Assembly: GCA_003225075.1 (NCBI GenBank)
Contig: QIAP01000018.1
Coordinates: 1-33,647 of the forward strand
Length of the DNA: 33,647 nucleotides
Source of the DNA: Acidobacteriota bacterium
GTDB lineage: Bacteria; Acidobacteriota; Terriglobia; Terriglobales; Acidobacteriaceae
Direction of reading: 5' to 3'
Shown one piece after another: positions 5,371 through 33,647 of this stretch (positions are counted from its first letter, which is position 1; every line of letters starts with the position of its first letter). Under the pieces are notes generated by a model that saw only the letters and a program-made list of their open reading frames with translations, was not told where the DNA came from and did not search any database. The position numbers were made by a program, and so were the translations under genes.

Positions 5371-7833
5371 TCATTTTCCCGGCTCAAGTTCTAACTGATG
5401 CTTCCTTGCCGTCTGCACTGCCGTCCGCGAAAACGGCAGTAGGAAAGTAAAACCTTCAGACCAGGAGCGCCACTGGTCCATGTAGTAAGGGCTGAGGAAG
5501 TTACCAGATTCCCCGGTGACGAGATTTAGCCTCGTTTGGTCGAGGTCTGAAAGATCAACCGTGAGCCTTTCTGATGGACCAAAAGTTCGGCCAACTTGCT
5601 TCACCGTGTAACCACCGCCCGATTGATCGTGAAGGCCGGGCCCCGTCCAACGGCCGATGATCGGAAGCCGGCTCAGAATCGGATGCTCAATTTCAACCGG
5701 CGAAAACTTTCCCCAATGCCAGTTGCTTAGGTCCTTAGGCGCTAAAGAGTCGCTCACCGCCGCCTCCACCGCCGCCGCCAGAAGTTCGTCGTAGTTTTCG
5801 TATCTCTGTGGCAGCCACCGCTTGGGCTGTTTCAGCAGAATATTCTCGATCCAGATTGAAGCCATCTCCCATTGATAGCTCTTCCAGCCGAATGTTCCCT
5901 CGGCTGATTGGTCATCATTTTTCGCGGCCCCGAGTCTTGCTTCCAATAATAAGCGCGCCAGTTCGCGTCGCGAGACCCTCTCGATAGTAGGGGCAGCCGA
6001 ATCGATCGTGAGTCTTCCATCCCAGTCACGCATCAGTTCACGCGCCTGGCGGGCCCGTCCGGAGAGGTCTTTGGTGTGATCTAAAGCGTAAACAAAGCGC
6101 TCGGTGCAGAAGCGATCGTAGGCGGAATAGATATCATTCTGCAGTGCCAGCATGTCAGCAGCCTCAAACTTCTTGCCTGATTCCAGCACGCGATAGATGC
6201 GCTCGGTGCGCCACGGTGCTCCCCATTGGTTGCTAAGGCTATAGAGATACCCATCCGGCGTTATGCGTCCATTGGCGGTGGCTATTATTCCCGAAGGAGG
6301 GTCGTACACGCTGGGCAGCTTTTCAAATGGCACGTAACCAGTCCACTCGTGATAATTGTCCGTGCCGCTCACCGGCACACTTCCGTCCCCAGCAGCCCGG
6401 ATTGGAATGTGTCCTGTCGCTTGATACCCAATGTGTCCGTCCACATCGGCATACGCCGCATTCTGTGAGGGGGAATCCCACGTGGAAAGCGCCCGACGGA
6501 ACTCATCCCAGTTCTGCGCGGCGTCCACGTCAAAGAACGGGTCATGCATCGAGTCGTAGAGTGTCCAACTCAGCGCAAGCTTCCGCGACTCGCCCGGAAC
6601 CAGCTCCGTCATGATTGGACCGTGTCGCGTCAGGGCGACATCCACCGTAACGTCGGGTCTGTTCTTGACGTGAATCACCTCTTCACGATGCTCCAGAGGG
6701 CGCCAACCTTGGGGAGTCAGATATTGACCAGAGCCGTTGAAGGTCTCAACATAAACGTCTTCGACAGTCGGACCTACGTTGGTAAATCCCCAGGCAATCC
6801 TTTGATTGTGCCCCACCGTCACAAACGGCATTCCGGGTAGCGTCACACCGGCGACGTCGAACCTCCCGCATCGCAGGTGAGCTTCATACCACAGATTGGG
6901 CATCTCATGATTGAGGTGCATGTCATTGGAAAGCAATGGCCTTCCTGTCACCGTGTGCTGCCCGGAAACGACCCAGTTATTGGAGCCGGGCACGAGCAGG
7001 AGATCATCGCCAGTTTGCTGAGAAGAGTAGGTGGGGGATTGTAAGGTTTTATGCTCCGCGGAAGCTTTATTACCCGAGCGGCGATTCTCCTCGTAGTCTT
7101 GCCGCTTGCGCTCCACGCGCCGCGGGTCGGCGGAGGGTGGCCGGTCTCGCCAGGAAGAGTTAACGTATAAATCAGCGGTAAGCTCCGGGCCAAGCTTGCC
7201 GAGGATCTTCTCTCGCGTCAACGCTTCTCGATACGGTCCATGGTTTAGGTCCTGTACCAACCGTGCGCCGATTAAAAGAGTGTCCTCTATCGTCCACGGA
7301 TGCGGCGAGTAACGAAGGATGCGAAATTCAATCGGCAGGCGGTCACGGTGTGAGTCGATGAAAACGTTCACCCCTCGTGCGTATGCTTCAAAGAAAGAAC
7401 GATCGCGTGGCGAGGTCGTTTCCCCTGCGCGGCGGGCGACGGCGCACAGACCCAGAATGCGTTGCTCGCGATCGTGCTTGATAAAGTCCGGGCCAAGAAT
7501 CTCTGCGATCTCTCCGGCTGCAAATCGCCGCATGATGTCCATTTGCCAAAGCCGGTCTTGCGCGGTTACATAACCCTGGGCGAAGAAGAGATCTTCGAGA
7601 GATGCCGCCTCGATGGTGGGTACCCCGTGGCTGTCGCGAGTAACGGAGACGGGGGCAGAAAGTTCCTGAACGACAATCTTGCCGTCCAACTGGGGAAGTG
7701 CAGACCGTGCCTCGAAATAGAGCCACGCAACGACGATGAGAATTATGGCGAAGAGCAGCAGGACTGCTATCAAGATACGAAGGAACCAACGAGGACGTCT
7801 GGAAGCGGAGATAGCAATCGCGGTAGTTGCCAT
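5371..7833 (-). CDS. Membrane-anchored penicillin acylase family (Ntn) hydrolase
   Basis: 820 residues. A short basic N-terminus is followed by one transmembrane helix (about 17-40), so the catalytic part is probably periplasmic and tethered rather than released. The alpha part includes RDSHGVPTIEA and FAQGYVTAQDRLWQMDIMRR. The autocleavage site and nucleophile are in VPGSNNWVVSG: Ser284 would become the N-terminus of the beta subunit after self-processing. The beta part has LLSNDMHL, VTLPGMPFVTVGHN and QNAAYADVDGHIGY, all family landmarks. Relatives cleave penicillins, acyl-homoserine lactones or other amides; the substrate cannot be read from sequence. A charged, low-complexity segment at about 229-275 precedes the cleavage site and probably is the removable spacer peptide. 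Confidence 0.92.
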   Translation of the reverse strand: MATTAIAISASRRPRWFLRILIAVLLLFAIILIVVAWLYFEARSALPQLDGKIVVQELSAPVSVTRDSHGVPTIEAASLEDLFFAQGYVTAQDRLWQMDIMRRFAAGEIAEILGPDFIKHDREQRILGLCAVARRAGETTSPRDRSFFEAYARGVNVFIDSHRDRLPIEFRILRYSPHPWTIEDTLLIGARLVQDLNHGPYREALTREKILGKLGPELTADLYVNSSWRDRPPSADPRRVERKRQDYEENRRSGNKASAEHKTLQSPTYSSQQTGDDLLLVPGSNNWVVSGQHTVTGRPLLSNDMHLNHEMPNLWYEAHLRCGRFDVAGVTLPGMPFVTVGHNQRIAWGFTNVGPTVEDVYVETFNGSGQYLTPQGWRPLEHREEVIHVKNRPDVTVDVALTRHGPIMTELVPGESRKLALSWTLYDSMHDPFFDVDAAQNWDEFRRALSTWDSPSQNAAYADVDGHIGYQATGHIPIRAAGDGSVPVSGTDNYHEWTGYVPFEKLPSVYDPPSGIIATANGRITPDGYLYSLSNQWGAPWRTERIYRVLESGKKFEAADMLALQNDIYSAYDRFCTERFVYALDHTKDLSGRARQARELMRDWDGRLTIDSAAPTIERVSRRELARLLLEARLGAAKNDDQSAEGTFGWKSYQWEMASIWIENILLKQPKRWLPQRYENYDELLAAAVEAAVSDSLAPKDLSNWHWGKFSPVEIEHPILSRLPIIGRWTGPGLHDQSGGGYTVKQVGRTFGPSERLTVDLSDLDQTRLNLVTGESGNFLSPYYMDQWRSWSEGFTFLLPFSRTAVQTARKHQLELEPGK

Positions 7834-17157: not shown

Positions 17158-17225
17158 GCGGCTGGTAGTTCTGCGTGTTGTCCTACAGCGCGGACCTTGC
17201 AGTAAACTGAGTATACGAAGTGAGT

Positions 17226-17265
17226 GGCCCCGTAGCTCAGATGGATAGAGCAGCGGTTTCCTAAA
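17226..17265 (+). pseudogene. 5' half of a tRNA-Arg(CCT) gene, truncated in the anticodon loop
   Basis: The acceptor 5' strand GGCCCCG, TA, D-arm GCTC-AGATGGATA-GAGC, A, anticodon 5' strand GCGGT and loop TTCCTAA (anticodon CCT) follow the standard tRNA-Arg(CCT) layout base for base. The 3' strand of the anticodon stem, the variable loop, the T arm and the acceptor 3' strand are missing. After the loop the sequence turns into GGGCTGCTTTTTTT. No matching 3' half (GGTTCGA arm plus CGGGGCC) was found in the following 480 bases. It is a remnant and cannot make a tRNA, unless the break is an assembly error. Confidence 0.8.
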
Positions 17266-17279
17266 GGGCTGCTTTTTTT
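17249..17279 (+). terminator. Terminator-like hairpin formed across the tRNA break
   Basis: AGCAGC (17249-17254), inside the tRNA remnant, pairs with GCTGCT (17268-17273). The stem extends by a G-U and an A-U pair, encloses a 13-base loop and runs straight into seven T. This is a plausible intrinsic terminator for rightward transcription, including read-through from the receptor gene. Half of its stem comes from the tRNA D and anticodon arms. Confidence 0.5.
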
Positions 17280-17280
17280 A

Positions 17281-17722
17281 CGCCCGGTTGCATTTCAGTT
17301 ACATAGGATGCTCTTGGGATTACGCTGACGCTTCCTCGTGTCTCGCAGATTCCGTTGATTCTGCGCTGGAAAATCAGGACTGGCGAAGTTCTTGAAAGAC
17401 AATCCAGGCGCAAAAAGACGAAAGGACTGAGAATCCGAAGCAATTCATGGCTAACGAAGAGCACTACGCGACATGAGAACTCTGTCCGATGATTGTGTGA
17501 TTCGATGCGACCGGATAGAGCCAAAAATCTCACTTTCCGTCCACACCGAATGTGGCTTCATCCTGTGCAGGACGGTGAGCGCGCCTATAGCCCTCATGCT
17601 CCAAAGCACACCCAGCGAGGCATCGAAGTGCCGGTGCTTCTGTCCCCTTCTTGAAGCCCTAGCATCCGGCGGACGGGCTGCCTTCCGCCACGCCGAAGCA
17701 CGCTCTTTGATTGTAGATGTAA
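17281..17722. other. Gene-free stretch with small hairpins
   Basis: About 440 bases between the tRNA remnant and the TPR protein gene. An 88-codon open frame on the plus strand (17473-17739) shows no domain, signal or ribosome binding site and I do not accept it. Three small inverted repeats are visible: CGCAGA/TCTGCG at 17344-17365 (with two more paired bases inside), CCACA/TGTGG at 17541-17555 and GGCGGA/TCCGCC at 17668-17689. The last could serve as a weak terminator of the leftward TPR gene, but no T run follows. Nothing else recognised. Confidence 0.4.
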
Positions 17723-18739
17723 CTATTGTGGGCTGTTAAGAGCCTGTTGAATTTTATCCACCATTGACTGTGCTCCCCCCGCCATAGGACCCTTCGGGTC
17801 CAGCCTAAGATACTGTTGAAATTCTTTCAGAGCTGTTTGGGGATCGCGCTTCCTCAAGGCGATGTTACCCAGAATCACGTGCACCGGTGCCATGCCTGGC
17901 TGCAGAGCTGCGGCTTTCATGGCGTGCGGTTCCGCGTCCTGCCACCGCCCCATCGCCCAATAGGTTTTGGCCAGTTCATAGTGTCCCTGGGGAGATTCTC
18001 CGTCCAGTTTCAGTCCCTCGGTCAGGCTCTTCTCCGCGTCCGCGTAGTTCTTTTCGGAGTTTTGCAGGTTGCCGAGAGTGAATCGTGCTTCCGGTAGCCG
18101 CGGATCAATCTCTATGGCTTGATCCAATGCAGATTTCGCATCCGCCGGTTTGCTCTGCTGGATATACACCGTCGCCAGCAAGACGTAAGCATCGGGAAAA
18201 CGAGGATAAAGCTTGATGGCTTTTTTAAGGTGGTCAACGATGCTTTGCGGGTCTTTGGCCTCTTCCCAAAGTTCGCGCGCCTTGGTGAATTCCTTCCGAG
18301 CCTTATCTGGAACTGCGGCAATCCGGGCGTTAAGGCGAGCGTTAGGCCCTTCCGGAGGTACAACAGACGGCGCATTACCCGGCTTGGGCCGCAACTCGAA
18401 GTTGAGATAGTTGCTGGAAGCAACCGTCAGATCGACTGGTTGGGACATTTCCTCATAGCCGGGCAATCGGACCCGGACCACATACACGGACGAAGGAATT
18501 CCCTGAATGCCGAATTTCCCCGAGGTATCGGTCTGCGCCTGGCCAGAGTAGCCCGAATCCGCGGACTCCACCATAACCACTACGCGTTCCAGGGCACGAT
18601 GTGTCACCGCGTCACGAACAGAGCCGGTAATCGAGGTGCGAAAAGCGGGAGCGTTTTTTTGCGCCCCCACCGGAAAGCAAAACAGCCACCAGCAAATTGT
18701 TGCGACCAGAAGCAGACTAATTCGGGTGGGAGGTCTCAT
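17723..18739 (-). CDS. Secreted carboxypeptidase-regulatory-like / TPR protein
   Basis: 338 residues. A signal peptide ends near FPVGAQ (residue 26). Residues about 35-118 are a CarboxypepD_reg/Cna-B-like sandwich (SITGSVRDAVTHRALERVVV, GKFGIQGIPSSVYVVRVRLP). A linker rich in Pro/Ala leads to about five tetratricopeptide repeats (150-330), for example AYVLLATVYIQQSKPADAKS and GHYELAKTYWAMGRWQDAEP. The ATG at 18737-18739 has an excellent site (GGAGG six bases upstream). The gene follows the second TonB-dependent receptor in the same direction, across a strong terminator. Its N-terminal domain type matches those of both receptors, so an envelope role connected with them is possible, but this is inference. 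The TPR part probably mediates protein contacts in the periplasm. Confidence 0.85.
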   Translation of the reverse strand: MRPPTRISLLLVATICWWLFCFPVGAQKNAPAFRTSITGSVRDAVTHRALERVVVMVESADSGYSGQAQTDTSGKFGIQGIPSSVYVVRVRLPGYEEMSQPVDLTVASSNYLNFELRPKPGNAPSVVPPEGPNARLNARIAAVPDKARKEFTKARELWEEAKDPQSIVDHLKKAIKLYPRFPDAYVLLATVYIQQSKPADAKSALDQAIEIDPRLPEARFTLGNLQNSEKNYADAEKSLTEGLKLDGESPQGHYELAKTYWAMGRWQDAEPHAMKAAALQPGMAPVHVILGNIALRKRDPQTALKEFQQYLRLDPKGPMAGGAQSMVDKIQQALNSPQ

Positions 18740-18820
18740 AGATCCTCCGATAGCAGCACTACACCATGCAGGTCAGAAATGGTTCGCTTTCCGTTTCATT
18801 AAACAACTCAATATCCAAAC

Positions 18821-18848
18821 TAAAACGGGAGGGCACGTTCGCCCTCCC
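18821..18848 (-). terminator. Intrinsic terminator after the second TonB-dependent receptor
   Basis: Perfect 8-bp stem GGGAGGGC / GCCCTCCC with a 6-base loop, followed on the minus strand by GTTTTAG. It lies 19 bases after the receptor stop (18868). It separates the receptor from the downstream TPR gene, which must then rely on read-through or on its own promoter. Confidence 0.8.
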
Positions 18849-18867
18849 TAATCCCACAACGGAAGAT

Positions 18868-21800
18868 TCAGAACACCCACTTCACATTGAGGCGAGCGTT
18901 AAAGGGCCGCTGGAACGCCGGCGGAACGCCGATGTTGCCGTTGCCGCGCGGATGCTTGAAGTCAAAGTTCGGCGTTCCCAGTGACGCGTCGTGAAGCTGA
19001 TCGACACGAAGCTGGGTCTTCTGGTTGGCGACATTAAACAGATCAGCGCCGAAGTGCAGACTGTGCTTCTCGCTCAACTTGACCATGTATTCGGCATGAA
19101 TGTCGCCTTCGCCCAGGGTTGCCGTACGGCCCAGTGCTCCCCGCCCGCCGACCGGGATTTCGCCGCCATTCTGGTAAACCGGATGTGCCCGGAGATCATT
19201 GATCGGTGTTCCGCTTTCAATGCGGACGCCCGTTCCCAAAGTCAGATTTCTCAGGAATGAACTCGAGAAAGTGTAGCTCAGGAAGCTGTTGAAGATGTGG
19301 CGCCGGTCGGTGTTAAGAAAGCCGACCGCGAACTGATTGCCCAGCAAGTTCAATGAGCCCGGCGTGAAATCGAAGAGCGAGCTGATGCTGGGGTCGCTCT
19401 GGCCGTTGTCGTTACGGAACGCACCTTCATAGTTTCCGGCAAGAGTTGACCAACGGTAATTAGTGCGCATCTGCCAGCCCTTGCTGAAGCCCTTGCTGAT
19501 TTCCACTTCCACTGCCTTGTAAGTGCGAACCGGGGTGACAAAACCATCTGGTATGCCGTCCGAAGCAACGTTTCCAGCGGTGTCGGGATTCGTGATGCAA
19601 ACATCAGCCAGCCCTTGAGAGGTGTTATAGGGATTGAAAACCGTTCCTGCGTAAGGTTGTCCAGTCGCGGACGAAATAGGGCAACCCGGCGGGAGCCCTC
19701 CCACAGGATAGATCTGCTCGATCGGGTTAATGAAGTGATCGAGCGAGCTCGTCGGGTTCCCGATATCGAATTGTTGAGGAACACCCAGAAGCGCCGCCTC
19801 GGGTGAGACACCGGACATGTCCTCAACAATCCTGCGCAGTCGGCGTTGTTGATACCGAATACTTGTCACGATTCCGTGACGGAATTCGTGCTGCACGCCA
19901 CCAACGTACTCTTCCAGATACTGCATCTTGGTTCCTTTGTGGATGGCTTCCCCGGATTGATAGGATGTGTAAAGAAACGGCGTGAGCACGTGCTGATCAT
20001 CCAGGGCGGGCGTGATCGTTCCATCCGCGTTAGTGGCTAATTGGCAAGCACCCGGAACTGTGCAAGCCTGGCCGGAAGGATCGGTAAACGGCGGCTGGAA
20101 AAACGCGAATTCAGCATCCTCTTCGTTGCTTAACGAGCGAATCGCCAAGTCCAAAGGGATGGCATAGCTAGTACGAGCGTAATTGCCGTAGATCTTGGTT
20201 TTGCGGTCACCTAGTGGATCAATGGCGAGCCCAAAGCGCGGAGACCAGTTGTCCGTGAACGTGTAGTGCACCTGGGTTTTCTGACCGGTTAACGCATTGG
20301 TATAGTTCGAACCCTGCAGCATCTGCTGCTCCCAGCGATAGCCGGCATTAACGACGATATGCCGCCCAATCGCCCAGGAATCGCCAACGTACGCAGAGTG
20401 GTACCGGCCATAGGTATTGAAGTTCGGCGTGCTGAAAAATCCGCGATTTTGCAATAGCACAACTTCGGTCAGGCCATTGCCGGGTACATTGTTGTAGACA
20501 CCTACGCTCCCTGGGCTGAATCCCCAACTCGCGGCAGTATCCAGCTCAAACGTGTTTGCGTAGTCAACAAGCCCATGTGGGAGTCCTGAGGCATCGGCTA
20601 AACCGTTGGGAACGTTGAACCCACCGCCGGTTGCCTGCCGATTACCGCCGTAGTCGTTCCATTCGAAGCGATAGCCGATCCCGAATGTGTGCTGCCCCAG
20701 TTTGTTTACAACTTTCTGGGTGTCAAAGCTCAGGGCGTGATTATCACCAAACGTGTTCTCGTAATATCCGAGACCTTGACGGTTATAGATACCGGTCAAC
20801 GGCGTACCCAAGGTTCCAAGATTACTGCTGCCATCGCCAGACCCAGTATTGTCGAAAACCTGGAAGACGTTCGGCGAGCTGGGCGTTTCGTTCAGGTAAT
20901 TGTGCCCCCAGGAAAACGAAGCGTTAGCCAGCCAAGTCGGCGAAAGCGTGCCGTTATAGCGCAGGACCCAGTTCCGCGTTCCGTTCGACAGCTTGCTGAA
21001 GGTCGTTTTGCTGAACGTGTTCAACCAGCCGTTGGGCGAGTCGCTGGTCTCGCGGGTCGGATCGCCGAAAACTGAACTTTCAACCACATGGTTGTCGCTG
21101 AGCTTGAAAGTCAATTTAGCGGCATAGTCATAGCTGATTTGGGGGATCGTCGCGTTTCCAAGAACCGGAAATCCGCTCGCGCCGTGCAGATTCGACAACT
21201 GGTCATACAACCGGTTCCACGAGGGGTTGAAGGAACCGAAGAAGAAAAGTCGATGTTTCAGTCCGGGTACGTATCCGCCTAATTCCGCGGCAATGTCCCA
21301 CTCTCCCTGATGGATAGCGGCGCCCTGCTGATTCAGTCTGCCGAAGTTGTCGGGATTTAAGTGCTCGACTTCGAATCGCTGCGGCCCAAAATAGGCACTC
21401 ATTCCGCCATGGAATTGGTCGCTACCCGACTTGGTAACGATCTGCACCACGCCACCCGTGGTCTTGCCATACTGCGGTTCATAGCCCCCGGTCTTTACAT
21501 CCACTTCCTTAACAAAGGAAAGATTAATTCCGGTTGCCAGCGCGCCATAGCTACGCGAGAACACGCCAATACCGCCAAAGGCGCCGTCAGTGATGTTCAC
21601 ACCGTCCGCAATATATTGATTTTCCAGCCCGCTGCCTCCCGCAATGGAAGGATTCGCTGCGCCGGTCCCGCCACCCTCGTTTACTCCCGCCGCGGCATAG
21701 AACAAGCCCGTAACGTTTCGGGCCACCGGCACCTGCGAGTAAAAAGTATCGTTCAAGCTGGTCTCAAGCTTGGTAGCAGCTTCGTCCACCCCAACGGCAG

Positions 21801-22155
21801 CGGCTGTCACTTCCACCGTTTCGTTGGAACCCCCTGGTTCCAATGTCAGGCGGATGGCTGACGCCCGGTTCGCATAAAATTCCACCTGTTTGATCTCAGT
21901 CGCCTTGAAGCCGGTCTGCTCAGCTTTCACTGAATAGAAGCCCGGCGTCAAAAGGTCGAAAACAAAGCGACCCTCGGAATCGCTCATCGTGCTCCTGTTG
22001 CCAATCGGACCGGTCAAAGTAACCTTGGCTCGCGTCACCACCGCGCCCGAACTGTCGAACACGGTTCCACGCAAATTGCCTTTGACGGTCGATTCTTGTG
22101 CCAACATCCCTAAGCTGAGAAATAGAATGGTGATCGGGACAAGGAGTCTTTTCAT
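18868..22155 (-). CDS. TonB-dependent receptor with carboxypeptidase-regulatory-like N-terminus (Oar-like), second copy
   Basis: 1095 residues. The start is the ATG at 22153-22155, preceded by AGGAGG at ideal spacing; the 13 extra codons upstream are not needed. Signal peptide MKRLLVPITILFLSLGMLAQ. Residues about 22-110 form the carboxypeptidase-regulatory-like sandwich (LRGTVFDSSGAVVTRAKVTL, LLTPGFYSVKAEQTGFKATE). Plug region with NQYIADGVNITDGAFGGIG, VKEVDVKTGGYEPQYGKTTG and GVVQIVTKSGSDQFHGG. The barrel follows and ends FNARLNVKWVF, with terminal Phe. It differs from the receptor at 14137 in length and sequence, so the two are old paralogues rather than a recent duplication. Loops contain paired cysteines (GQACTVPGACQ). 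The ligand is unknown; outer-membrane uptake or surface binding is inferred from the family. Confidence 0.92.
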   Translation of the reverse strand: MKRLLVPITILFLSLGMLAQESTVKGNLRGTVFDSSGAVVTRAKVTLTGPIGNRSTMSDSEGRFVFDLLTPGFYSVKAEQTGFKATEIKQVEFYANRASAIRLTLEPGGSNETVEVTAAAVGVDEAATKLETSLNDTFYSQVPVARNVTGLFYAAAGVNEGGGTGAANPSIAGGSGLENQYIADGVNITDGAFGGIGVFSRSYGALATGINLSFVKEVDVKTGGYEPQYGKTTGGVVQIVTKSGSDQFHGGMSAYFGPQRFEVEHLNPDNFGRLNQQGAAIHQGEWDIAAELGGYVPGLKHRLFFFGSFNPSWNRLYDQLSNLHGASGFPVLGNATIPQISYDYAAKLTFKLSDNHVVESSVFGDPTRETSDSPNGWLNTFSKTTFSKLSNGTRNWVLRYNGTLSPTWLANASFSWGHNYLNETPSSPNVFQVFDNTGSGDGSSNLGTLGTPLTGIYNRQGLGYYENTFGDNHALSFDTQKVVNKLGQHTFGIGYRFEWNDYGGNRQATGGGFNVPNGLADASGLPHGLVDYANTFELDTAASWGFSPGSVGVYNNVPGNGLTEVVLLQNRGFFSTPNFNTYGRYHSAYVGDSWAIGRHIVVNAGYRWEQQMLQGSNYTNALTGQKTQVHYTFTDNWSPRFGLAIDPLGDRKTKIYGNYARTSYAIPLDLAIRSLSNEEDAEFAFFQPPFTDPSGQACTVPGACQLATNADGTITPALDDQHVLTPFLYTSYQSGEAIHKGTKMQYLEEYVGGVQHEFRHGIVTSIRYQQRRLRRIVEDMSGVSPEAALLGVPQQFDIGNPTSSLDHFINPIEQIYPVGGLPPGCPISSATGQPYAGTVFNPYNTSQGLADVCITNPDTAGNVASDGIPDGFVTPVRTYKAVEVEISKGFSKGWQMRTNYRWSTLAGNYEGAFRNDNGQSDPSISSLFDFTPGSLNLLGNQFAVGFLNTDRRHIFNSFLSYTFSSSFLRNLTLGTGVRIESGTPINDLRAHPVYQNGGEIPVGGRGALGRTATLGEGDIHAEYMVKLSEKHSLHFGADLFNVANQKTQLRVDQLHDASLGTPNFDFKHPRGNGNIGVPPAFQRPFNARLNVKWVF

Positions 22156-22421
22156 TGGTCCTCCTAGCGGAGATCGGGGGTCTCGTAGGGTCAAGGTGAA
22201 TGCCCTGATGCTTCAGCGAAGGCAGCATTCGGACGAGATCAAATACAGAACAACAGAAGACGGGAGATGTTATTTGCATTCTGTGATCCATTGTAAGACC
22301 AGCTCTGATTGTTGACGATACAGGTACTTACGTTGAGGCAGGTTACAATCTCGCGTAGCCGTGTGATCCTAATCTATGAAATTGCATAGACCGGGGGAAG
22401 GGAAGGGACACGGTACGGGAC

Positions 22422-24494
22422 CTAGGACTTCGGACCGATGCTCAATTTTCTTCCCTTTTGTTCGGCGGCTGCCGCTTTCTGCAGGTCTCCGGCTTTGCGG
22501 TAATAGTCGGCTAGGGTCAGGATCAAGGGTCCGCTGGAAGGTTTAACATCGGTGGCCGCTTGCATGACAGCAAGAGCAGTCTTTAGATCTCCGGTCCTTT
22601 CAAAACTGTCGGCGATCCGCAGAATTGTCTGTTCGTCGCTCACACTGCTGATTTCCTTTGGGGAGTAAAGCAATGTGACTTTGCCATACAGCTGCTGAGC
22701 GTAATAGAGCTCCACGAGCTTATTTCTGAATCGATCATCATTGGGGTTTTTCCTGTGTGCGTCTTCAACTTTCCTCAAAGCATTCGTTTTGTCCCCTAGC
22801 GTTAAATAGCAGAGAGCCCGCTGGAAGTCCTCAAATCCGTTGCGGGAGCTGTCAACCAGAGTGCGGTCGTAAACGTCCCAGGCGGCGATCGGTGTGGCTG
22901 ACGGATAAATGCTGAATGAAAGAAAGCCGAAAACCTTAGCCTGGCTTTCGGGATCGCGCAGCGTCATCACCAGCCGGTAATTCCCGGGCGGTAAATCGGC
23001 GGTCGCCAGGCGTTTGCCATTTATAACCGAGCCGCCTGCATCGAACTGATCCAGGGGAATTTCATCATGAATCGTTTGCGCATCGCCCGCGCCCATTCTT
23101 CCGTAAGCGTAATCCACCGCAAGCTTCTTGTCTGAATGGGCAGCCTTCACTGTGGGCAGGTCCCAAACCTGATAAAAGAAATTGAGGTTTTCACCTTGTG
23201 CCAGTTCCAGCTCCTGTCCGGCCAGAGGAGTAAACTTCACGCCCGCGCCGCTGAAAGGCAGGTCCGAGTGAGCAATCATCCGGGCCTCTGCAAAAGGCAC
23301 CAGGTTCGAGACCTGCAGGTTGTCGGGCTGAACTGCTGGAACCGTGACCTCCACCTCCCGCCGAAACGCGGTACCGCGCAGCAGGTTCGTAAGCTGGAAC
23401 TCAATTTTGTACTGGTTCGCGGGGAGGGGGAGCCAGCCTTCGACCCCAAATACCTTCTGCTTCATCTTCTCGAAGTCATCACTGTCCACATTATTTGCGA
23501 TTTTCTTTTCGTCGCTAAAAATCAGCTTTCCATCGGGTGTGTGGACCTTTACCGCAATCAGAACCGAGTAGTAATAACCTCCTTTCGAGGCCTCCCCAAC
23601 ACTGAAATCCTCGGGTTTCTTCAGGCGCAATACATAGTGCAGGTTCATGTCGCCCGCCGCATCACGCAAAGGAACGGTCAGCACGTCCAGAAATTCATCA
23701 CCAAGAACAATCCGGTGCGAGACGTCTTCGAGCAGATGGCGGCGGGTCTCGAGCGCGCGCAGTGAAACCGGATTGTTTGCCAAATCCTTGATCGTGGCCA
23801 GCATTACATCCGATTGTAGGCTTACCCTTCCGGTCTGCATATCCACCGGTTCATCAGGAATTAAACTTAAAGTCTCCCGGGCAACATCACGGCCGGCGCC
23901 GTCAGACAAAATCTTGAGCGCACTCATGCGAGTCGGCCCGACTTCGGCTGTAATCAATTTTTCCGGTCCGTCGCTCGAAGGACTATAGAGCCGGAATTCG
24001 TCGGTAGCTTCCCGCTGGTAGAAGATGACATAGAAGAACGGCGGCAGAGCAGGATTGGCATTGGAATAAAACCATACCTCCATGGGAGTGACCTTCTGCA
24101 GGCCGAGCAGGCGCTGGCGTTGCGCGGGCTCTCCCAAGGTGATGTAGATGTGGCCCATGTCAGTCCGCCAACCTTGAGTATGGGAAACCAGGCCGAAGTA
24201 CTGATTCGCATGCTCGATGCGCCGATAATGCTCAATCTTATAGACATTATCGGGCGAACCGGGCGTGGGATTGCGAACCTCCCAGAAACGCTGAATGAAC
24301 AGGTCCCGCGCGTCATCGCTGGCAAGCTGCAGGAAAGCTTCCTTTTCCTGCTTGGTGACGATGTAAGCGACGTCTTTCGTCAGCCAATCACGAAAACGCG
24401 GCGGCAGCGATTTGATGGTTTCGCTCGCCGAATTCAGAGCGCTGCTTACGACGATGGCCAAGCAGCAAATTACTCGATAACATCTTTGGCGCAT
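22422..24494 (-). CDS. GWxTD domain protein with C-terminal TPR-like repeats
   Basis: 690 residues from the ATG at 24492-24494. The frame is open further up to a GTG at 24584, but the chosen start gives a clear signal peptide (MRQRCYRVICCLAIVVSSAL). The GWxTD motif is GWRTD at residues 108-112, preceded by FWEVRNPTPGSPDNVYK, the classic N-terminal part of this family. Then come a beta-rich middle section and two or more TPR-like repeats from about 560 to the end (ALCYLTLGDKTNALRKVEDA, LTLADYYRKAGDLQKAAAAE). GWxTD proteins are common in Acidobacteriota and Bacteroidota, exported, and mostly uncharacterised. It lies 86 bases downstream of the SDR gene and probably shares its transcript. No enzyme activity should be assumed. 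Confidence 0.88.
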   Translation of the reverse strand: MRQRCYRVICCLAIVVSSALNSASETIKSLPPRFRDWLTKDVAYIVTKQEKEAFLQLASDDARDLFIQRFWEVRNPTPGSPDNVYKIEHYRRIEHANQYFGLVSHTQGWRTDMGHIYITLGEPAQRQRLLGLQKVTPMEVWFYSNANPALPPFFYVIFYQREATDEFRLYSPSSDGPEKLITAEVGPTRMSALKILSDGAGRDVARETLSLIPDEPVDMQTGRVSLQSDVMLATIKDLANNPVSLRALETRRHLLEDVSHRIVLGDEFLDVLTVPLRDAAGDMNLHYVLRLKKPEDFSVGEASKGGYYYSVLIAVKVHTPDGKLIFSDEKKIANNVDSDDFEKMKQKVFGVEGWLPLPANQYKIEFQLTNLLRGTAFRREVEVTVPAVQPDNLQVSNLVPFAEARMIAHSDLPFSGAGVKFTPLAGQELELAQGENLNFFYQVWDLPTVKAAHSDKKLAVDYAYGRMGAGDAQTIHDEIPLDQFDAGGSVINGKRLATADLPPGNYRLVMTLRDPESQAKVFGFLSFSIYPSATPIAAWDVYDRTLVDSSRNGFEDFQRALCYLTLGDKTNALRKVEDAHRKNPNDDRFRNKLVELYYAQQLYGKVTLLYSPKEISSVSDEQTILRIADSFERTGDLKTALAVMQAATDVKPSSGPLILTLADYYRKAGDLQKAAAAEQKGRKLSIGPKS

Positions 24495-24580
24495 TGCTGG
24501 GAATTCTCGCGGGACGCAGACAATCTTAGAAAAATTGCATCGTGCTTGCAAGGCGTTGTCATCGACTGGGCCGCTAGATA

Positions 24581-25609
24581 TCACGCTGTTTTCGCAAACG
24601 CGGCGTCTTCGGCTGCATAGTCGAATTGCTCCTTGTGAATACTGCTTGGCGGGTTCTGCTGCTCCCAGGCTATCGTTCGTCGTATTGCTTCATCACTTTC
24701 GACCGGCTCGCGATAACCCAGTTCCGACCGAATCCTCTCCGAGCTAGCGACTACGTGCTGCGCCGCGTTGCCGGGTAGCAACAGGTGCTTTGGCACCCGC
24801 TCCCGTGCTAGCACGACGAACCTTCCTGCCCACTTCATTTGCCCTGCTATTTTCCTTTGCCATTCAAGCTCTGGCAGAGTTGGCTCCTCACAAATGTTAT
24901 AAACGCTCCCAGCGGCACGATCTGATGTCGCAGCAATCGCGATCGCGTGCGCCACGTTCTCTACATACCCTCGTGGACCGCGCCACGCGGCGAAATCATC
25001 GGACAGCAATATGGAAGATCTGCCATCAGCAATGCGTTTCAGTAGCGGGAAAAATCTATGGAGAGGATCTTTGGGTCCGTACACCATGGGCAGCCGTAGA
25101 ACAGTCCACTGTACCTGAGGATCGCCTCTGATGGTTTCCTCCGCTGCGATCTTATCGTAGCGGTCGTCTAGCCACGAAAATACCCTTTGCATCATCTGTA
25201 CGGTTTCAGCCGGATAGAGCTGGCGCGTCGTGCGGAGCGGAGAATCCTCCCTCAGGGGCAACGGCTCCAAGGGTCCGGGCTCGACGCCGTGGAGCACGCC
25301 CCATGCGCGATAAACGTCCATACTACTAATTGCCACTAAACGCGCCGCAACATCGCGCACAGTGCGCATCAACTCCCGCGCCTGATCGCCTGAGCTCAGG
25401 ATCAAGTCCACGATGACCTCTGGCGCAAATCGGCTGAGCTCGTTTCGGTACTCCACAAACCGATTGCGGTCCCCCTGGATCTGCTCCACATCGCCAAGAC
25501 CAGCATCATGACGGCGATGAAACACGGCGACTTGATGGCCAGAATCGCGCAGCTCCCGCACAAGCGGTGAGCCGATGAATCCGTTTCCGCCAATCACCAA
25601 GATTCGCAT
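24581..25609 (-). CDS. NAD-dependent epimerase/dehydratase-like SDR protein
   Basis: 342 residues from the ATG at 25607-25609, which opens directly with the Rossmann strand and the nucleotide-binding loop MRILVIGGNGFIGSPLVREL (GGNGFIG at residues 7-13). Further family signs are LVAISSMDVYRAWG, WTVLRLPMVYGPKDPLHRFF and SVYNICEEPTLPELEW. At the place of the catalytic Tyr-x3-Lys it reads DDRYDKIAAEE: the Lys is there, but the residue four before it is Asp and the Tyr is only two before. Catalysis may therefore be altered, or the tyrosine supplied differently. The open frame to 25645 adds 12 unlikely residues. Substrate unknown; sugar-nucleotide epimerases and NAD(P)-binding atypical SDRs share this fold. 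Upstream of the GWxTD gene in the same direction. Confidence 0.8.
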   Translation of the reverse strand: MRILVIGGNGFIGSPLVRELRDSGHQVAVFHRRHDAGLGDVEQIQGDRNRFVEYRNELSRFAPEVIVDLILSSGDQARELMRTVRDVAARLVAISSMDVYRAWGVLHGVEPGPLEPLPLREDSPLRTTRQLYPAETVQMMQRVFSWLDDRYDKIAAEETIRGDPQVQWTVLRLPMVYGPKDPLHRFFPLLKRIADGRSSILLSDDFAAWRGPRGYVENVAHAIAIAATSDRAAGSVYNICEEPTLPELEWQRKIAGQMKWAGRFVVLARERVPKHLLLPGNAAQHVVASSERIRSELGYREPVESDEAIRRTIAWEQQNPPSSIHKEQFDYAAEDAAFAKTA

Positions 25610-25724
25610 AGCACTCTGGGTGAGCACTGACCCGTTGCTGAGCACTCAGTGTATCCGGGAGCATAGGTCGTAGAGTAAGTTGGTGTAATCGCGCCAACGA
25701 CTTCACTGAATCATCTCATGTCAA

Positions 25725-26153
25725 GTGCGTACGGCTTACTTGGCGCTGTTTTCCGTAGAAGTGGCCCCGCTCGGCATTTCGGTTCGAATAAGGGCTCGAG
25801 AACTTTCACGGTGTCCGATCCCACCAGTCTTACCGCAATGTAATGCAGAACCGCCACCTTTCACGGTACTTCAAGATGATCCTTTATCTATTATCTATGT
25901 GATCAGCTACTCACGAGCGTGGGTGGATCAAGCTCACAATTTCGACCCTGCGAGCAATTGCGACGATTGGACCGATATCACGCTTCTTCGGTATGCGGGT
26001 GATGGCGATATCATCCTGACCGCGGACAAGAAGCTTCAAACTGCGATTGGGATGGTCGAGCCCTCCGGTACGGTTCAAGTAAAAACCACCGAGGAACTCT
26101 ATCATCGCGGTTTTATATTTGTGCCGAAAACCCCTCGAAATAAGCGTTTCTAA
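25725..26153 (+). CDS. Hypothetical protein with PIN-like C-terminal segment, possibly a remnant
   Basis: Open frame of 142 codons from a GTG at 25725. Only the second half looks like protein: WTDITLLRYAGDGDIILTAD followed by KKLQTAI resembles the last acidic-residue region of PIN-fold ribonucleases, where an Asp after a hydrophobic strand (LTADK) helps bind the metal. The N-terminal PIN acidic residues cannot be recognised, and the first 45 codons are unusual in composition (many Pro/Arg/Cys). It may thus be the 3' part of a degraded PIN toxin or nuclease gene; no antitoxin is adjacent. A shorter start at the GTG at 25898 is possible. It sits directly before the decayed IS91 element, in a region consistent with gene decay. 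Confidence 0.35.
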   Translation: MRTAYLALFSVEVAPLGISVRIRARELSRCPIPPVLPQCNAEPPPFTVLQDDPLSIIYVISYSRAWVDQAHNFDPASNCDDWTDITLLRYAGDGDIILTADKKLQTAIGMVEPSGTVQVKTTEELYHRGFIFVPKTPRNKRF

Positions 26154-26338
26154 GTCGCTGACTCCAACAGAGGAACATGGTGCGATGCGGGCGGGTCGAA
26201 ACCAGATGGTTTTCAAACGCGAGGCTCAGTTTCCGGATGCGTCGTCAGAACTAAGCCGCTGGTGCGGCGGATTGAGAGTAGTGGTGTAGCGAGAGGAGTC
26301 GACTGGCGCTAGCTTGGGTGGTCATAGGAGGGGTTCCT

Positions 26339-27083
26339 ATGACCCGACTGCGTCAACGCATGCTGGACGATCTCCGGCGGCGCAACTATTCTCCCGACAC
26401 GATCCGCGGCTATATCCGAGCCGTACAGCAGTTTGCCGAGTACTTTGGGCGCTCTCCAGAACAACTGGGGGGCCGCAGAGTTACGGCGCTATCAGCTTCA
26501 CCTGCTTCACGAGAGGAAGCTCGCTCTCGGCACGGTGGAGAACAACATCTCGGCCCTGCGCTTTCTCTACAAGAAAACGCTAAAGCGGCGCGATCTGGCC
26601 TTCGACGATCTGCCCTTTCCCAAGCAGCCGCGCACGTTGCCCACTGTTCTCAGTCAGGATGAGGTGACGCGACTGATCGAGGCAGCACCGAACCGCATGC
26701 ATCGCATGCTGCTGATGGTGCTCTACGCCACCGGCATGCGCCGCACCGAGGCATCTTTGCTGAAGGTGAGCGATCTCGACCGCCAACGCATGGTCATTCA
26801 TATCCGTCGTGGTAAGGGCCAGCGCGATCGCGACGTGCCGCTGACCCCCAAGTTGCTCGAAGCCCTGCGCGAGTACTGGCGTTGGAAGAAGCCCCGCGTC
26901 TATCTGTTCCCCAGCAAGATGAGCGATCCCGGCGTCGAACAACCCATCTCCGACAAAACGGTGTGGAACGTCTGCCGTGCGGCCGCCACTCGCGCCGGCA
27001 TTCAGAAGAAGCTCGGCGCGCATACGCTCCGGCATTGCTTCGCCGCGCATTTGCTGGAGGCAGGGACCGATCTATCAGCGAGG
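26339..27083 (+). pseudogene. IS91-associated tyrosine recombinase/integrase, frameshifted and C-terminally truncated
   Basis: Begins at the ATG at 26339 (AGGAGGGG upstream) with [20 protein letters not shown], an N-terminal SAM-like core-binding domain. The frame is lost in a run of six G at 26467-26472: removing one G restores [20 protein letters not shown]. The catalytic part then reads ATGMRRTEASLLKVSDLD (Arg I), IRRGKGQRDRDVPLT (Lys region) and HTLRHCFAAHLLEAGTD (His-x2-Arg). The protein should go on to a GH pair and the catalytic Tyr, but it stops matching after LEAGTDL and passes in frame into the transposase start. The nucleophile is therefore missing, and strand exchange by this copy is not expected even if the frameshift is suppressed. 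Confidence 0.82.
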
Positions 27084-28265
27084 ATGAGTCGGCCACCCTT
27101 TGAGGTGGCCAATGTAATCCGCAAAGCAGGTGACAGTTTCCGCCAACGCACGTCGTTGACCTGGCCGCAGCGCAAGGTGCTCGTTGCCATTGCGCGTTGC
27201 CGTACCGCCGCGCTCGGCGGACATCGCGATCAGTGCATGCGCTGCGGTCATCAAGCCATCTCTTATAACTCGTGCCGCAACCGGCACTGCCCCAAGTGCC
27301 AGACCAACGCTCGCGAGAAGTGGCTCGCGAAGCGCCAGCAGGAACTCCTGCCGGCGAGCTACTTCCATTTGGTCTTCAGCGTGCCGCACGCGCTCGTGCC
27401 GCTGATGTGGCAGAATCAGCGGCGGCTGTTCTCGCTGTTGTTCGAGAGCAGCGCCGCCACGCTGCTCGAAGTGGCTGCCGACCCCAAGCATCTCGGCGTC
27501 GAGATTGGGTTCCTCGCCATCCTGCACACCTGGGGACAAACCCTCCAGTCGCATCCTCATATCCACTGCGTTGTGCCCGGCGGTGGTCTGTCCTTCGATC
27601 ACCGCCGCTGGCTCTCCTCGCGCTCCAGCTTCTTCCTCCCCGTCACAGTCCTCAGCCGCGTTTTCCGGGGCAAGTTCGGGGCGGGACGGGATTGCGGCGT
27701 GCTTTTCGCAACCACCAACTCGTATTCTACGGTGAGTGCCGGGCACTCGCAGTCGAGAAGAACTTCGTCGCCTTTCTGCGCACTCTGTTTCAACAGGACT
27801 GGATCGTCTATGCCAAGCCCCCCTTCGGCGGACCAGAACACGTCCTTCACTATCTGGCCCGCTACACTCACCGCGTCGCCATCTCCCACCACCGGTTGCT
27901 CTCGGTCTCCGACTCCGCGGTGAGTTTTCGCTGGAAGGATTACGCCCATGGCAGCAAGCCCCGCACCATGACGCTTTCTCCGCAGGAGTTTCTGCGGCGC
28001 TTCCGGCAGCATGTATTACCCAGAAGCTTCCCCCGCATCCGCTACTTCGGCTGGTTGGCCAACCGCAGCCGAAAAAACCTGCTGCCACTCTGCCGTCTTC
28101 TGCTCCACCAGCCGCCGCCAGCAACCCAAGGCTTCGTCCTTGAACCAGCCTACTACCTGGCCGTGCCCTCTCTGCCAAGGCCCCATGTACGTCATCCAAC
28201 GACTCACCGCTGCCCAGATCCTTTTCGCCGAAACCACACTCGCATGTGCTTATGACTCGTCCTGA
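27084..28265 (+). pseudogene. IS91-family HUH transposase, frameshifted
   Basis: Starts MSRPPFEVANVIRKAGDSFR at 27084. The N-terminal zinc finger is intact (CMRCGHQAISYNSCRNRHCP plus KCQ). The HUH metal site is HPHIHCVV, and the region RVFRGKF is conserved. The frame breaks inside a G-rich tract near 27677-27692. The next frame then gives LRRAFRNHQLVFYGE, FLRTLFQQDWIVYAKPPFGG and YLARYTHRVAISHHR, which carries the expected tyrosine. A third change of frame near 28118-28165 is needed to reach the usual C-terminal CPLCQGPMYVIQRLTAAQ. IS91 transposases move DNA by rolling-circle replication; this copy is inactive unless the shifts are sequencing errors. Confidence 0.85.
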
Positions 28266-28652
28266 TCGCTCGCTGAACCCGGCCACTCTCGCAGGCATCT
28301 CGCCATGCTCCCTGAACCTGCGCCCCGCGCTTCAGAACAAACCTTCTTGCGCTGCAATCGGCCTGCCCTCCCTGGTTTGGGTGCCGGCCCGATGTGCACT
28401 CTCCATGTCTTCGCACCTCTATCTGTGGCGCTACTCACCACCATTTACCGATGATCGACGCGGTTGAAAACCCATAGCCCCAAACCTCCTGCTCCGACCG
28501 CACCACCGGCTTCCTTCTTACGGCTCTATCCGAACCGCTCCCCGAAACCGATGTGCCTCGTTGGGGATCTTCCGGTGGAGCGGTTCCGATAGAGTCCTAA
28601 CGTCATCCGCCTGCAATCGGCCGCAATTCTGCGTGCAGTCGATTGACACTTT
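28266..28652. other. Non-coding right part of the IS91 element and junction
   Basis: No credible gene. The stretch is rich in C, as IS91 flanks often are, and includes the long inverted repeat at 28522-28597. Short open frames here on both strands are antisense or composition artefacts. The boundary with chromosomal sequence is probably between 28597 and 28652. Confidence 0.5.
28522..28597. repeat. Long imperfect inverted repeat at the right end of the IS91 element
   Basis: Left arm 28522-28541 (GGCTCTATCCGAACCGCTCC) pairs with the right arm 28577-28597. The match is perfect except for one extra base and one substitution over about 20 positions. Just inside, TCCCC and GGGGA can extend the stem. 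The loop is about 35 bases. This is large enough to form a cruciform, or a hairpin on the single strand that a rolling-circle transposase would process. Confidence 0.75.
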
Positions 28653-28958
28653 TCAACGGCGCAACAGATTGGGCATGCCGCACTTGTCGGCGATCTTGCG
28701 GAGGATCTTCACCCCCGCGGCCTTGGCCGTACCCACCGATCGTTCCGCTTGTTCTTCGGCGAGTTGAGATTCGGATACGGCAGTTATGGCAATAATTTGC
28801 CGGGCGTGATCTAACTTCACGTCCACGGCTAGTCCCGGCGTGGGAGGCATTTGAGACTTCCAGACGCCTTCGAGGCAAAACCAGTATTGCCGACCCTCGA
28901 TCATGAGCAAGCCAGGGCCGGTGCGGGGATCACGCAAGACTTTGCCTCGCTTTATCAT
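28653..28958 (-). CDS. Small protein of unknown function, possibly truncated
   Basis: 101 residues from the ATG at 28956-28958 (GGAAA upstream); an in-frame TTG at 29012 would add 18 residues. The N-terminal part, RGKVLRDPRTGPGLLMIEGR followed by QYWFCLEGVW, resembles a cold-shock-like OB-fold beta strand pattern, though the RNA-binding aromatic motifs are not present. The second half (ESQLAEEQAERS, AKAAGVKILRKIADKCGMP) is helical and ends abruptly NLLRR close to the IS91 right end. A longer ancestral protein may therefore have been cut by the element. I do not recognise the family. It is divergent from the sigma-factor gene. Confidence 0.5.
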   Translation of the reverse strand: MIKRGKVLRDPRTGPGLLMIEGRQYWFCLEGVWKSQMPPTPGLAVDVKLDHARQIIAITAVSESQLAEEQAERSVGTAKAAGVKILRKIADKCGMPNLLRR

Positions 28959-29164
28959 GTCTGTTTCCGGCAAATCAGGAAAAACGAAAACAGTTGTAGG
29001 AGTGCGCTTCAAGTGCTAGGCTCTTCCGCATTGGAAGCCATGCTTTCGCCCTGCCCTCCTCATTTGGCTTCCCGTGCTCTTATTTCGCATTGCGCAAAGA
29101 GTGAGGAAAAACCGTCGTGCCGCTTCGAAATTCTCTGCACGCGCCTGCGTTCGGGCAGAGCGCA

Positions 29165-29701
29165 ATGGGTCAGACAGTCAAGGAGCGACAAGCTCTCGAC
29201 CAACTATTCAGCCTGGCCTACGAGGAGTTGCGCCGGCTGGCTTGGAGCGTCAAGCGCGGCGATCCGAGCAACACGCTTAGTGCCACAGCTTTGATCAATG
29301 AGGCATGGCTAAAACTGGCAAAGTCGCCCCGTCTTGCGGCCACCTCTCGTCTACACTTCAAGCGCATCGCGGCCCGTGCTATGCGCCAATTGCTGATCGA
29401 GGCAGCGCGCCGGCGCAAAGCCCATAAACGGGGCGGGGACGGGGACGCAATCTTCGTTTCTTTCGACGATTCTTTCGACCGCGCAGCGACACCCAAGGAA
29501 AGCCTGATAGCGCTGGACACGGCCTTAACCGAACTTGCTCGCTTAGAACCGCGCCAGGCTCTAATCGTCGAGAGCCGGTTTTTCGGAGGCCTCGAAATCA
29601 GCGAAATTTCAACCCTGATTGGCGTGTCGGAAGCCACGATCTTGCGCGACTGGCGAGCGGCCAAGGCATGGCTGGGGCAAGCGATTCGCCGGGCCGAGTG
29701 A
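29165..29701 (+). CDS. ECF-type RNA polymerase sigma factor (Sigma70_ECF / TIGR02999-like)
   Basis: 178 residues from the ATG at 29165; a GTG at 29117 would add 16 residues and has GAGG upstream, so the start is uncertain. Region 2 includes LFSLAYEELRRLAW, SATALINEAWLKLAKSP and HFKRIAARAMRQLLIEAARR. Region 4 is LEPRQALIVESRFFGGLEIS followed by EISTLIGVSEATILRDWRAA, a helix-turn-helix for the -35 element. This subclass is abundant in Acidobacteriota and Planctomycetota and is usually found beside Ser/Thr kinases rather than anti-sigma factors, as here: the kinase starts 34 bases downstream. Phosphorylation by the kinase could control it, but this is inference. The gene set it directs cannot be read from this window. 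Confidence 0.92.
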   Translation: MGQTVKERQALDQLFSLAYEELRRLAWSVKRGDPSNTLSATALINEAWLKLAKSPRLAATSRLHFKRIAARAMRQLLIEAARRRKAHKRGGDGDAIFVSFDDSFDRAATPKESLIALDTALTELARLEPRQALIVESRFFGGLEISEISTLIGVSEATILRDWRAAKAWLGQAIRRAE

Positions 29702-29735
29702 CTTTGCATTCCGCAACGTGGGTACGAACTGAATT

Positions 29736-32414: not shown

Positions 32415-32622
32415 GCAAATTGTCTGGCTTGTGTGCCCGGCACGGCCTGACGGTCAGCTCCCAACCGCACTCTCTTTAGCTATTAAAAAATCGCATGACG
32501 GTTCTTGATAGCGGTTTGCGCAATGCGAAAGTGAGTACAAACAGGCGGAGCAGCGGCATAAACAGGCTGGCTCCCCTCCGCGCTGCTTCGCAACGCAAAT
32601 CGCAAAAAAATGGAGCATTACG

Positions 32623-33647
32623 ATGAGTAATCGTGCCTCGAAATCTGATCAGCTGCATGTCTTCTTCGCCACTATCACTTTGGCTTTGATCGTCGGACTG
32701 CCGAGCCCGCTCCATGCTCAGACATTCCAAAAAGTACCCGCTCTGGCCTTTACCAAGGCGTTTGCCGGCGCCGAGCCTCTGCGCCAGGTTCTCACGATCG
32801 CGTATACCAACAACTCGACGGTTCGCTTCGGCGCGACCGCATCGACGACTAGTGGAGGCAGCTGGCTGTCGGTTTCTCCCAGTGGCAACGGCTGCTGCTT
32901 CACGCCACTGGCCATTTCGGCCATCGTGACTGCCGGTAACCTGGCGGCCGGTAACTATCAAGGACAAATCGTAATCACCAACTTCTCCAATGGCAGCATC
33001 AAACTGACGATTCCGGTGACGCTCACGGTAGCGGCGTCGGGCGCGACGTTCTTCGACGATCTTCCGGGAAAGCTGAGTTTCTCCTTTAAGACCAGCGGCA
33101 CCCCAATCTCGCAGTCGATTCAGATCCGAAAACATGGGTCCGGAACCTTGAACTGGAGCGCGACGGCCAGTACTGCGGTTGGTGGCAGCTGGTTGACCGC
33201 CTCTGCTTCGAGCGGGACAGCGCCATCAACCATCACCATCGGCGTTAATAAAGCTGCCCTGCCTGGAGGAGGCGCGTCCCCTGGCACCTTCATAGGCCAA
33301 TTGCGATTCCAGACGTCAGGTGACAGCATGACCATTCCGGTGGCGGTTACCGTCGGCCCCGCCGTGTTTACCCAGATCAACCCGCTCAATTTCACCATGC
33401 CGTTCGGGGGAGCCAATTCTCTGGCTCAGGTAATCAACATCGCCACGAACAACAACTCCGCCATCCGCTACGGTGCCTCTGTAGCGACCGCGAAGGGTGG
33501 CAACTGGTTATCCATTTCCCCCGGTGGGAATGGCTGCTGCTTTGCGCCACTGGCGCATAGCGTCAGCGTAAACGCGAGTTCGCTTCCAGCGGGCGCCTAC
33601 ACGGGAGAGATCATCATCACCGAATTTGCCAACCCCGGCAGGGCGAT
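32623..33647 (+). CDS. Secreted BACON-like beta-sandwich repeat protein (5' part, runs off the window)
   Basis: Open to the window edge: 341 complete codons and no stop. The ATG at 32623 has GGAG seven bases upstream. A signal peptide ends near LPSPLHAQ (about residue 33). Three successive repeats of about 90-105 residues follow. Each has a Trp-containing strand (GGSWLSVSPSGNG, GGSWLTASASSGTAPSTITI, GGNWLSISPGGNG) and a G-x-Y/F-x-G-x-I/L strand (GNYQGQIVITNF, GTFIGQLRFQTSG, GAYTGEIIITEF), as in BACON-type domains. Repeats 1 and 3 share the rare motif GNGCCF(T/A)PLA; repeat 2 lacks it. Such domains bind glycans or act as spacers in surface proteins. It follows the kinase gene by 208 bases and may belong to the same signalling unit. 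Confidence 0.8.
   Translation, partial: MSNRASKSDQLHVFFATITLALIVGLPSPLHAQTFQKVPALAFTKAFAGAEPLRQVLTIAYTNNSTVRFGATASTTSGGSWLSVSPSGNGCCFTPLAISAIVTAGNLAAGNYQGQIVITNFSNGSIKLTIPVTLTVAASGATFFDDLPGKLSFSFKTSGTPISQSIQIRKHGSGTLNWSATASTAVGGSWLTASASSGTAPSTITIGVNKAALPGGGASPGTFIGQLRFQTSGDSMTIPVAVTVGPAVFTQINPLNFTMPFGGANSLAQVINIATNNNSAIRYGASVATAKGGNWLSISPGGNGCCFAPLAHSVSVNASSLPAGAYTGEIIITEFANPGRA

Follow-up and report, generated by a model that had tools for sequence, protein, structure and literature searches.

The locus analysed here raises a simple question: what is a tRNA-Arg(CCT) gene that stops inside its own anticodon loop? It lies in a window of 33,647 bases, which is the whole of contig C7 in a draft genome of 4.79 Mb and 259 contigs. 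The sequence is that of an exact tRNA-Arg(CCT) from base 1 through the anticodon loop and changes thereafter. Compared with the intact tRNA-Arg(CCT) of the same genome, there are no mismatches over 41 bases, which include one T common to both copies immediately upstream of the half. A control search with the reversed pattern gave no match in the genome even when three mismatches were allowed, so the 39-base exact match is not due to chance. ARAGORN found no tRNA in the window and no Rfam family reached its gathering score there; therefore, no 3' half follows the 5' half. A sequence-only reading of this DNA had described an exact 5' half through the anticodon loop with its 3' half absent, and that description is confirmed. 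To the right of the break come GGGCTGC and then seven T; these bases have no second match in the same genome, and the first ordinary-looking genes stand about 460 bases away from the half, no gene being recognised in between. Beginning at tRNA base 1 and breaking at the anticodon loop, the fragment has the form of the one that bounds a 5'-fragment island. The half is very probably the footprint of an island that inserted at the anticodon loop bringing its own 5' half, with the displaced chromosomal half left at the far end.

A search of the whole genome found a single intact tRNA-Arg(CCT), on the + strand of another contig (C139:2697-2773). The half and this copy have nothing in common further upstream than the shared T, which rules out tandem duplication of a longer stretch. 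A 3'-half pattern, allowing up to three mismatches, matched once in the genome, inside that intact gene; no orphan 3' half was found by it, and the option of a split or circularly permuted tRNA is rejected on these grounds. C139 starts inside the same kind of BACON-repeat gene that is cut by the end of the window, again on the + strand. Because a search of the whole genome with the BACON protein matched only these two ends, on the same strand, C7 probably runs on into C139 across a gap that falls within the repeats; the contig ends have no sequence overlap, and the adjacency rests on the broken gene. If the contigs join, the half (C7, +) stands upstream of the intact gene (C139, +) in direct order, with 16,383 bases, the gap and 2,735 bases between them. 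The contig order is consistent via the BACON gene, and the length would then be at least 19.1 kb, for a criterion of 2-200 kb in islands of this kind. Half and intact gene thus most likely bound one island in direct order. Compared with the earlier suggestion of a scar left by an excised element, it is more likely that the element is still in place and that the half is its left end, since half and intact gene appear to flank one island.

The proposed sequence of events is as follows. A tyrosine integrase, formerly carried by this island, would have exchanged strands in the 7-base anticodon loop; that tyrosine recombinases act in this loop had been stated in the sequence-only reading, and the locus fits. 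The chromosomal 5' half, with its old promoter, would have remained at the left end of the island, in the window, while the 5' half brought by the island, together with the sequence upstream of it, would have been fused to the chromosomal 3' half, restoring the intact gene at the right end, on C139. The sequence to the right of the break would then be the left attP arm of the island, in which a core site forms a dyad with the tRNA half and an arm-type-like motif follows (Table 1). The sequence upstream of the half, GTAAACTGA, carries TAAACT at -23. Among 27 distinct intact tRNA-Arg(CCT) genes of relatives, 5 have the same hexamer 24-48 bases upstream. Any -10-like hexamer at -36 to -18 was found in 6 of the 27 intact upstream regions, compared with 1.15 in shuffles, and before 12 of 48 halves, compared with 3.6. 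The 60 bases upstream of the intact gene on C139 contain no such hexamer. The -10-like element is a weak fit with the half being the old chromosomal 5' end.

Table 1. Features of the tRNA half and of the putative island in the window
Feature	Position	Strand	Remark
-10-like element TAAACT	17203-17208	+	23 bases before the half
5' half of tRNA-Arg(CCT); putative displaced chromosomal half, island left end (attL)	17226-17265	+	Sequence match
Dyad AGCAGC-N13-GCTGCT; probable integrase core sites, also the hairpin stem of the sequence-only reading	17249-17273	+	Centred on the middle anticodon base
TTCCTAA, 7-base anticodon loop; putative crossover (overlap) region	17258-17264	+	Viral orphan 3' halves begin here
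Putative island part in the window, 16,383 bases, probably continuing after a contig gap into C139:1-2735	17265-33647		BACON link
Seven-T run after the dyad; possible terminator tail	17273-17279	+	
Arm-type-like motif TTTCAGTTACATAGGA	17293-17308	+	11/16 to a motif found about as far from the break in some other 5'-half elements
Putative island genes: TPR protein, outer-membrane beta-barrel protein, GWxTD protein, epimerase	17723-25645	-	
Broken IS91-like element: own tyrosine-integrase domain (PF00589) running into Zn_Tnp_IS91 and Y2_Tnp	26344-28260	+	Not next to a tRNA
Putative island genes: ECF sigma factor, protein kinase with TPRs	29117-32414	+	
BACON-repeat gene, N-terminal part, cut by the contig end	32623-33645	+	Only other genome matches at the start of C139

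The cargo genes have no specifically mobile look. The sole integrase domain in the interval is that of the IS91-like remnant, where it shares one frame with the zinc-binding transposase domain; as the cognate enzyme it was rejected, being broken, part of an IS91-like element and without an adjoining tRNA. A cognate integrase was found neither in the island parts on C7 and C139 nor beside the C139 tRNA. Since none was found, what the window holds is probably an immobile remnant and not a working island. On a rival reading, an old 5'-type island was mostly deleted, leaving the left attachment half and a few hundred bases, with C139 lying elsewhere on the chromosome. Such a lone relic would suit the gene-free stretch passing into ordinary-looking genes and the missing integrase, but it is improbable, given that the broken BACON gene links the end of the window to the start of C139 and yields the expected direct order of half, island and intact gene. 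Across this genome, 28 integrase matches were found, and 9 of the 20 loci checked (L130-L149) have a tRNA gene within the stretch examined (Asp, His, Val, Ala, Ser, Arg or Leu); the genome seems rich in tRNA-targeted elements.

The island reading was compared with a near set of 61 genomes, namely the window's genome plus 60 relatives. Five of them have clear 5' halves that are not part of an intact tRNA: the window's own, G009, G010, G021 (two halves) and G025, that is, in 4 of the 60 relatives. Among 24 further 5'-half matches inspected, 21 lie at intact tRNA-Arg(CCT) genes, two at other tRNA genes, and one, on contig C27 of G053, is a degenerate 5' half. This last copy (L413, about 145-180, - strand) stands outside any tRNA gene. 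G004 and G036 have short 5' pieces beside intact genes. In G025, 18.4 kb with phage-like genes separate half and intact gene, which stand in direct order; a tyrosine integrase of 422 aa ends 54 bp before the intact tRNA and a second integrase lies near the left end, and either of the two may be the one that acts. The corresponding distance in G021 is 6.6 kb, also in direct order, and the integrase, of 418 aa, ends 30 bp short of the intact tRNA. G009 has an integrase of 401 aa, ending 26 bp short of its intact tRNA. The integrases of G021 and G025 are only distantly related (25% identity over 135 residues), so that more than one integrase lineage has probably developed or acquired the 5' mode. 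On contig C90 of G009, half (20842, +) and intact gene (44107, -) are 23 kb from each other and on different strands, which a simple island would not show; an inversion or a misassembly, the only explanations we offer, may account for this.

Comparison of the region itself, a check named in the sequence-only reading, found no homologue of the bases right of the break in the 60 relatives. Nor do the 398 other genomes of the class contain a clear homologue, only matches of 38 and 35 bases having been found in two genomes. Relatives of the outer-membrane gene of the window were found at E <= 1e-100 in 8 of 25 relatives, with no adjoining tRNA in the seven compared; in G037, a tRNA-Arg(CCT) lies about 11 kb from such a gene. 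The genes that follow the tRNA-Arg(CCT) on C139 are kept only in G011 among seven genomes compared. An ancestral left flank or empty site was not identified by synteny among the relatives compared.

A wider survey used as its pattern the 5' half followed by a base unable to form the Watson-Crick pair of the intact stem; the window, whose next base is A, is itself missed by this pattern. Matches were obtained in 4 of the 399 genomes of the class, in seven viral contigs and in 49 genome contigs spanning Acidobacteria, Nitrospira, Dehalococcoidia, Planctomycetes, Alphaproteobacteria and others. The 49 contigs hold 50 matches, from which two that are intact tRNAs according to ARAGORN (L238 and L242) were dropped, leaving 48 halves. 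An intact tRNA-Arg(CCT) on the same strand was seen at five halves (L201, L219, L229, L233 and L239) and is downstream in all five, as a displaced 5' fragment requires, which supports the 5'-fragment reading. Three halves (L199, L217 and L237) have an intact copy on the opposite strand, and the stretch examined around the other 40 contains none. A small layout is that of L233, in which a stretch of 2.4 kb contains half, partial integrase frame and intact tRNA; a further integrase frame follows past the tRNA. Immediately before the 5' half of this locus (3388-3624, half on +), an integrase C-terminus was matched, which suggests two elements in tandem at this tRNA. At four loci an intact tRNA-Arg(CCT) lies on the other strand about 75-200 bases past the 5' half: L057 (G010; 1688-2003), L126 (69-294), L199 (about 2855-3092) and L237 (about 6701-6890), the last two read with the half on +. 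The opposite-strand tRNA of G010 has a different anticodon stem, and these four elements may carry a complete tRNA of their own. The viral contig L127 has an integrase frame (2199-3335) that extends into the 5' half of the tRNA; the integrase gene and its attachment site thus share bases.

The position of the crossover can be read from 3' halves as well. Viral contigs contain at least 121 matches to a 3'-half pattern; the 121 listed, sorted by ARAGORN and a simple motif, comprise 64 intact genes, 50 orphan 3' halves and seven matches at an edge. Each of the 50 listed orphan halves has TT before CCTAA and so starts at or before TTCCTAA. With 3' halves starting and 5' halves ending there, the break in either kind falls at the 7-base anticodon loop, which would be the expected overlap region of a tyrosine recombinase. 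The survey pattern fixes the break position and is uninformative on its precision. In the less constrained set of relatives, the window, G010, G021 and G025 break at CCTAA or one base after it, and G009, the second G021 copy and the degenerate G053 copy break elsewhere. Orphan 3' halves of tRNA-Arg(CCT) are present in 6 of the 61 near genomes (G001, G018, G019, G033, G036 and G039), a count from which a copy cut by a contig end (G004 C105) was left out; 18 of the 61 genomes had no match to the pattern. An integrase lies near the orphan 3' half in G001 and G019. The 3' half beside the integrase in G001, which belongs to the same genus as the window's organism, has an internal tandem duplication of about 20 bases (L193, 1546-1610).

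The sequence-only reading had also proposed that the break creates a terminator, a hairpin followed by seven T. Pairing between AGCAGC (17249-17254) and GCTGCT (17268-17273) and the T run are indeed there, but the hairpin is weaker than that reading held: 145 of 200 shuffles of the 56-nt piece fold equally well or better and a terminator scan of 301 bases returned one site against 0.3 expected. The stem probably represents paired integrase core-binding sites around the overlap. A set of 17 halves has 63 symmetric pairs out of 170 around the middle anticodon base; shuffles average 41.8, and 1 of 5000 reaches 63. This centre was the best of 13 tried, with two others, inside the tRNA part, close to it (58 and 57). 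Taken by itself, the window shows 7 of 10 symmetric pairs (52 of 20,000 shuffles). A further 43 halves, from which L238, L242 and five loci of the first set were excluded, gave 141 of 430 against 112.2 (4 of 5000 shuffles; best of nine centres), the arms of both sets being unweighted for relatedness and identical arms having been removed in the 43-half set only. When right arms were swapped among the 43 halves, the mean was 135 and 141 was reached in 229 of 5000 trials; therefore, most of the dyad signal is a property common to the arms. GCTGCT occurs at the same place in L119 (G295) and L199.

The first 45 bases right of CCTAA agree with those of the half in G144 at 28 of 45 positions in register, the best of 16 arms, and 20,000 shuffles gave at most 23. 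Several 5'-half elements have a motif like TTTCAATAACTTACGG at +27 to +29 or at +17/+18. At +28 the window agrees with 11 of its 16 bases, and 11 or more were found in 1.3% of shuffled windows, for a motif that was composed by eye from the other arms and was not meant to use the window, but was composed after its arm had been seen. On another reading, the half was kept for a function of its own, as a tRNA-derived terminator or the source of a short RNA consisting of the 5' tRNA half. To the hairpin, the seven T and the one terminator-like site this idea adds the -10-like element upstream, but the folding is no better than that of shuffles, the stem falls on the dyad that integrase core sites would form, and none of the matches listed in the 60 relatives extends more than 5 bases past the half. 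We regard it as very unlikely to explain the half, although it is compatible with island origin, the two not being mutually exclusive, and the dyad with its T run is a possible terminator. An assembly chimera made through the 41-base repeat shared with C139, which a draft of so many contigs and the exact repetition of the half might lead one to suspect, is barely credible: nothing else in the genome matches the sequence right of the break, so that a real truncated copy would still be needed, and the same architecture lies inside long contigs of other genomes (G021 C23, 297 kb; G025 C15, 384 kb).

Islands bounded by a 5' fragment are known. The sequence-only reading had called a 5' half the less usual product, and the Islander collection (PMC4383910) bears this out: of 3919 islands, 159 have a 5' fragment and 3760 a 3' fragment. 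The 5'-fragment islands are bounded by an intact tRNA and an upstream 5' fragment on the same strand, with the break in the anticodon loop (site A); the window's case has that break and, if C7 joins C139, the same bounding pair, and differs in that its island has its ends on two contigs and no cognate integrase was found in it. Among archaea, integrases of the pTN3 type use the 5' half, and the tRNA is then expressed from the integrase promoter, according to a review (PMC8371274) that, citing Williams 2002, describes such use as seldom met in bacteria. These elements are like the putative island of the window in supplying the 5' half and in giving the regenerated tRNA the upstream sequence of the element. 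Integration of the pTN3 type splits the integrase gene, whereas the integrases of G021, G025 and G009 end before the tRNA half (with an overlap in L127). Ordinary 3'-fragment islands and prophages use the same tRNA and the same 7-base crossover region and are the mirror image: the 3' half comes with the element and the tRNA gene retains its original promoter, again by the account in PMC8371274. A literature search on integrase or attP use of the 5' half of a tRNA gene at the anticodon returned no match.

The G021 integrase allowed polarity to be compared within one subfamily. A search across 298 genomes of the order returned 30 loci, or 29 with G021 itself left out, whose integrases are 40-57% identical to it. 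At 22 of the 29, a tRNA of opposite sense follows the integrase (20 Met, 2 Asn), which places the integrase at the 3' end of the tRNA; the stretch examined at the other seven contains no tRNA. A same-sense tRNA was found only at G021, where the integrase lies at the 5' end of tRNA-Arg(CCT). With 22 of 29 relatives at the tRNA 3' end, use of that end is the rule and G021 the mirror-image case. No viral relatives of this integrase were confirmed. It is conceivable, if doubtful, that one integrase subfamily of this order can use the anticodon-loop site in either polarity, because that site is nearly symmetric.

For tRNA-Arg(CCT) in the 61 near genomes, the 5' type is about as common as the 3' type (five and six genomes, respectively), compared with about 4% of 5' fragments in Islander; this ratio is a lead and not a rate, as the set is small and the search started from a 5' half. 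The viral contigs point the other way, with seven 5' halves against at least 50 orphan 3' halves, counts obtained with patterns of different strictness. The case in the window is probably a further, immobile example of a known but uncommon 5'-fragment arrangement. An orphan 5' tRNA half may be read as the left end of an island and the intact gene as its right end, even when the two lie on different contigs. In the 5' mode the host tRNA gene would swap its promoter: if the either-polarity use suggested by G021 is true, insertion in the 5' polarity would remove the host tRNA promoter, and the regenerated tRNA-Arg(CCT) would depend on the upstream sequence of the element.
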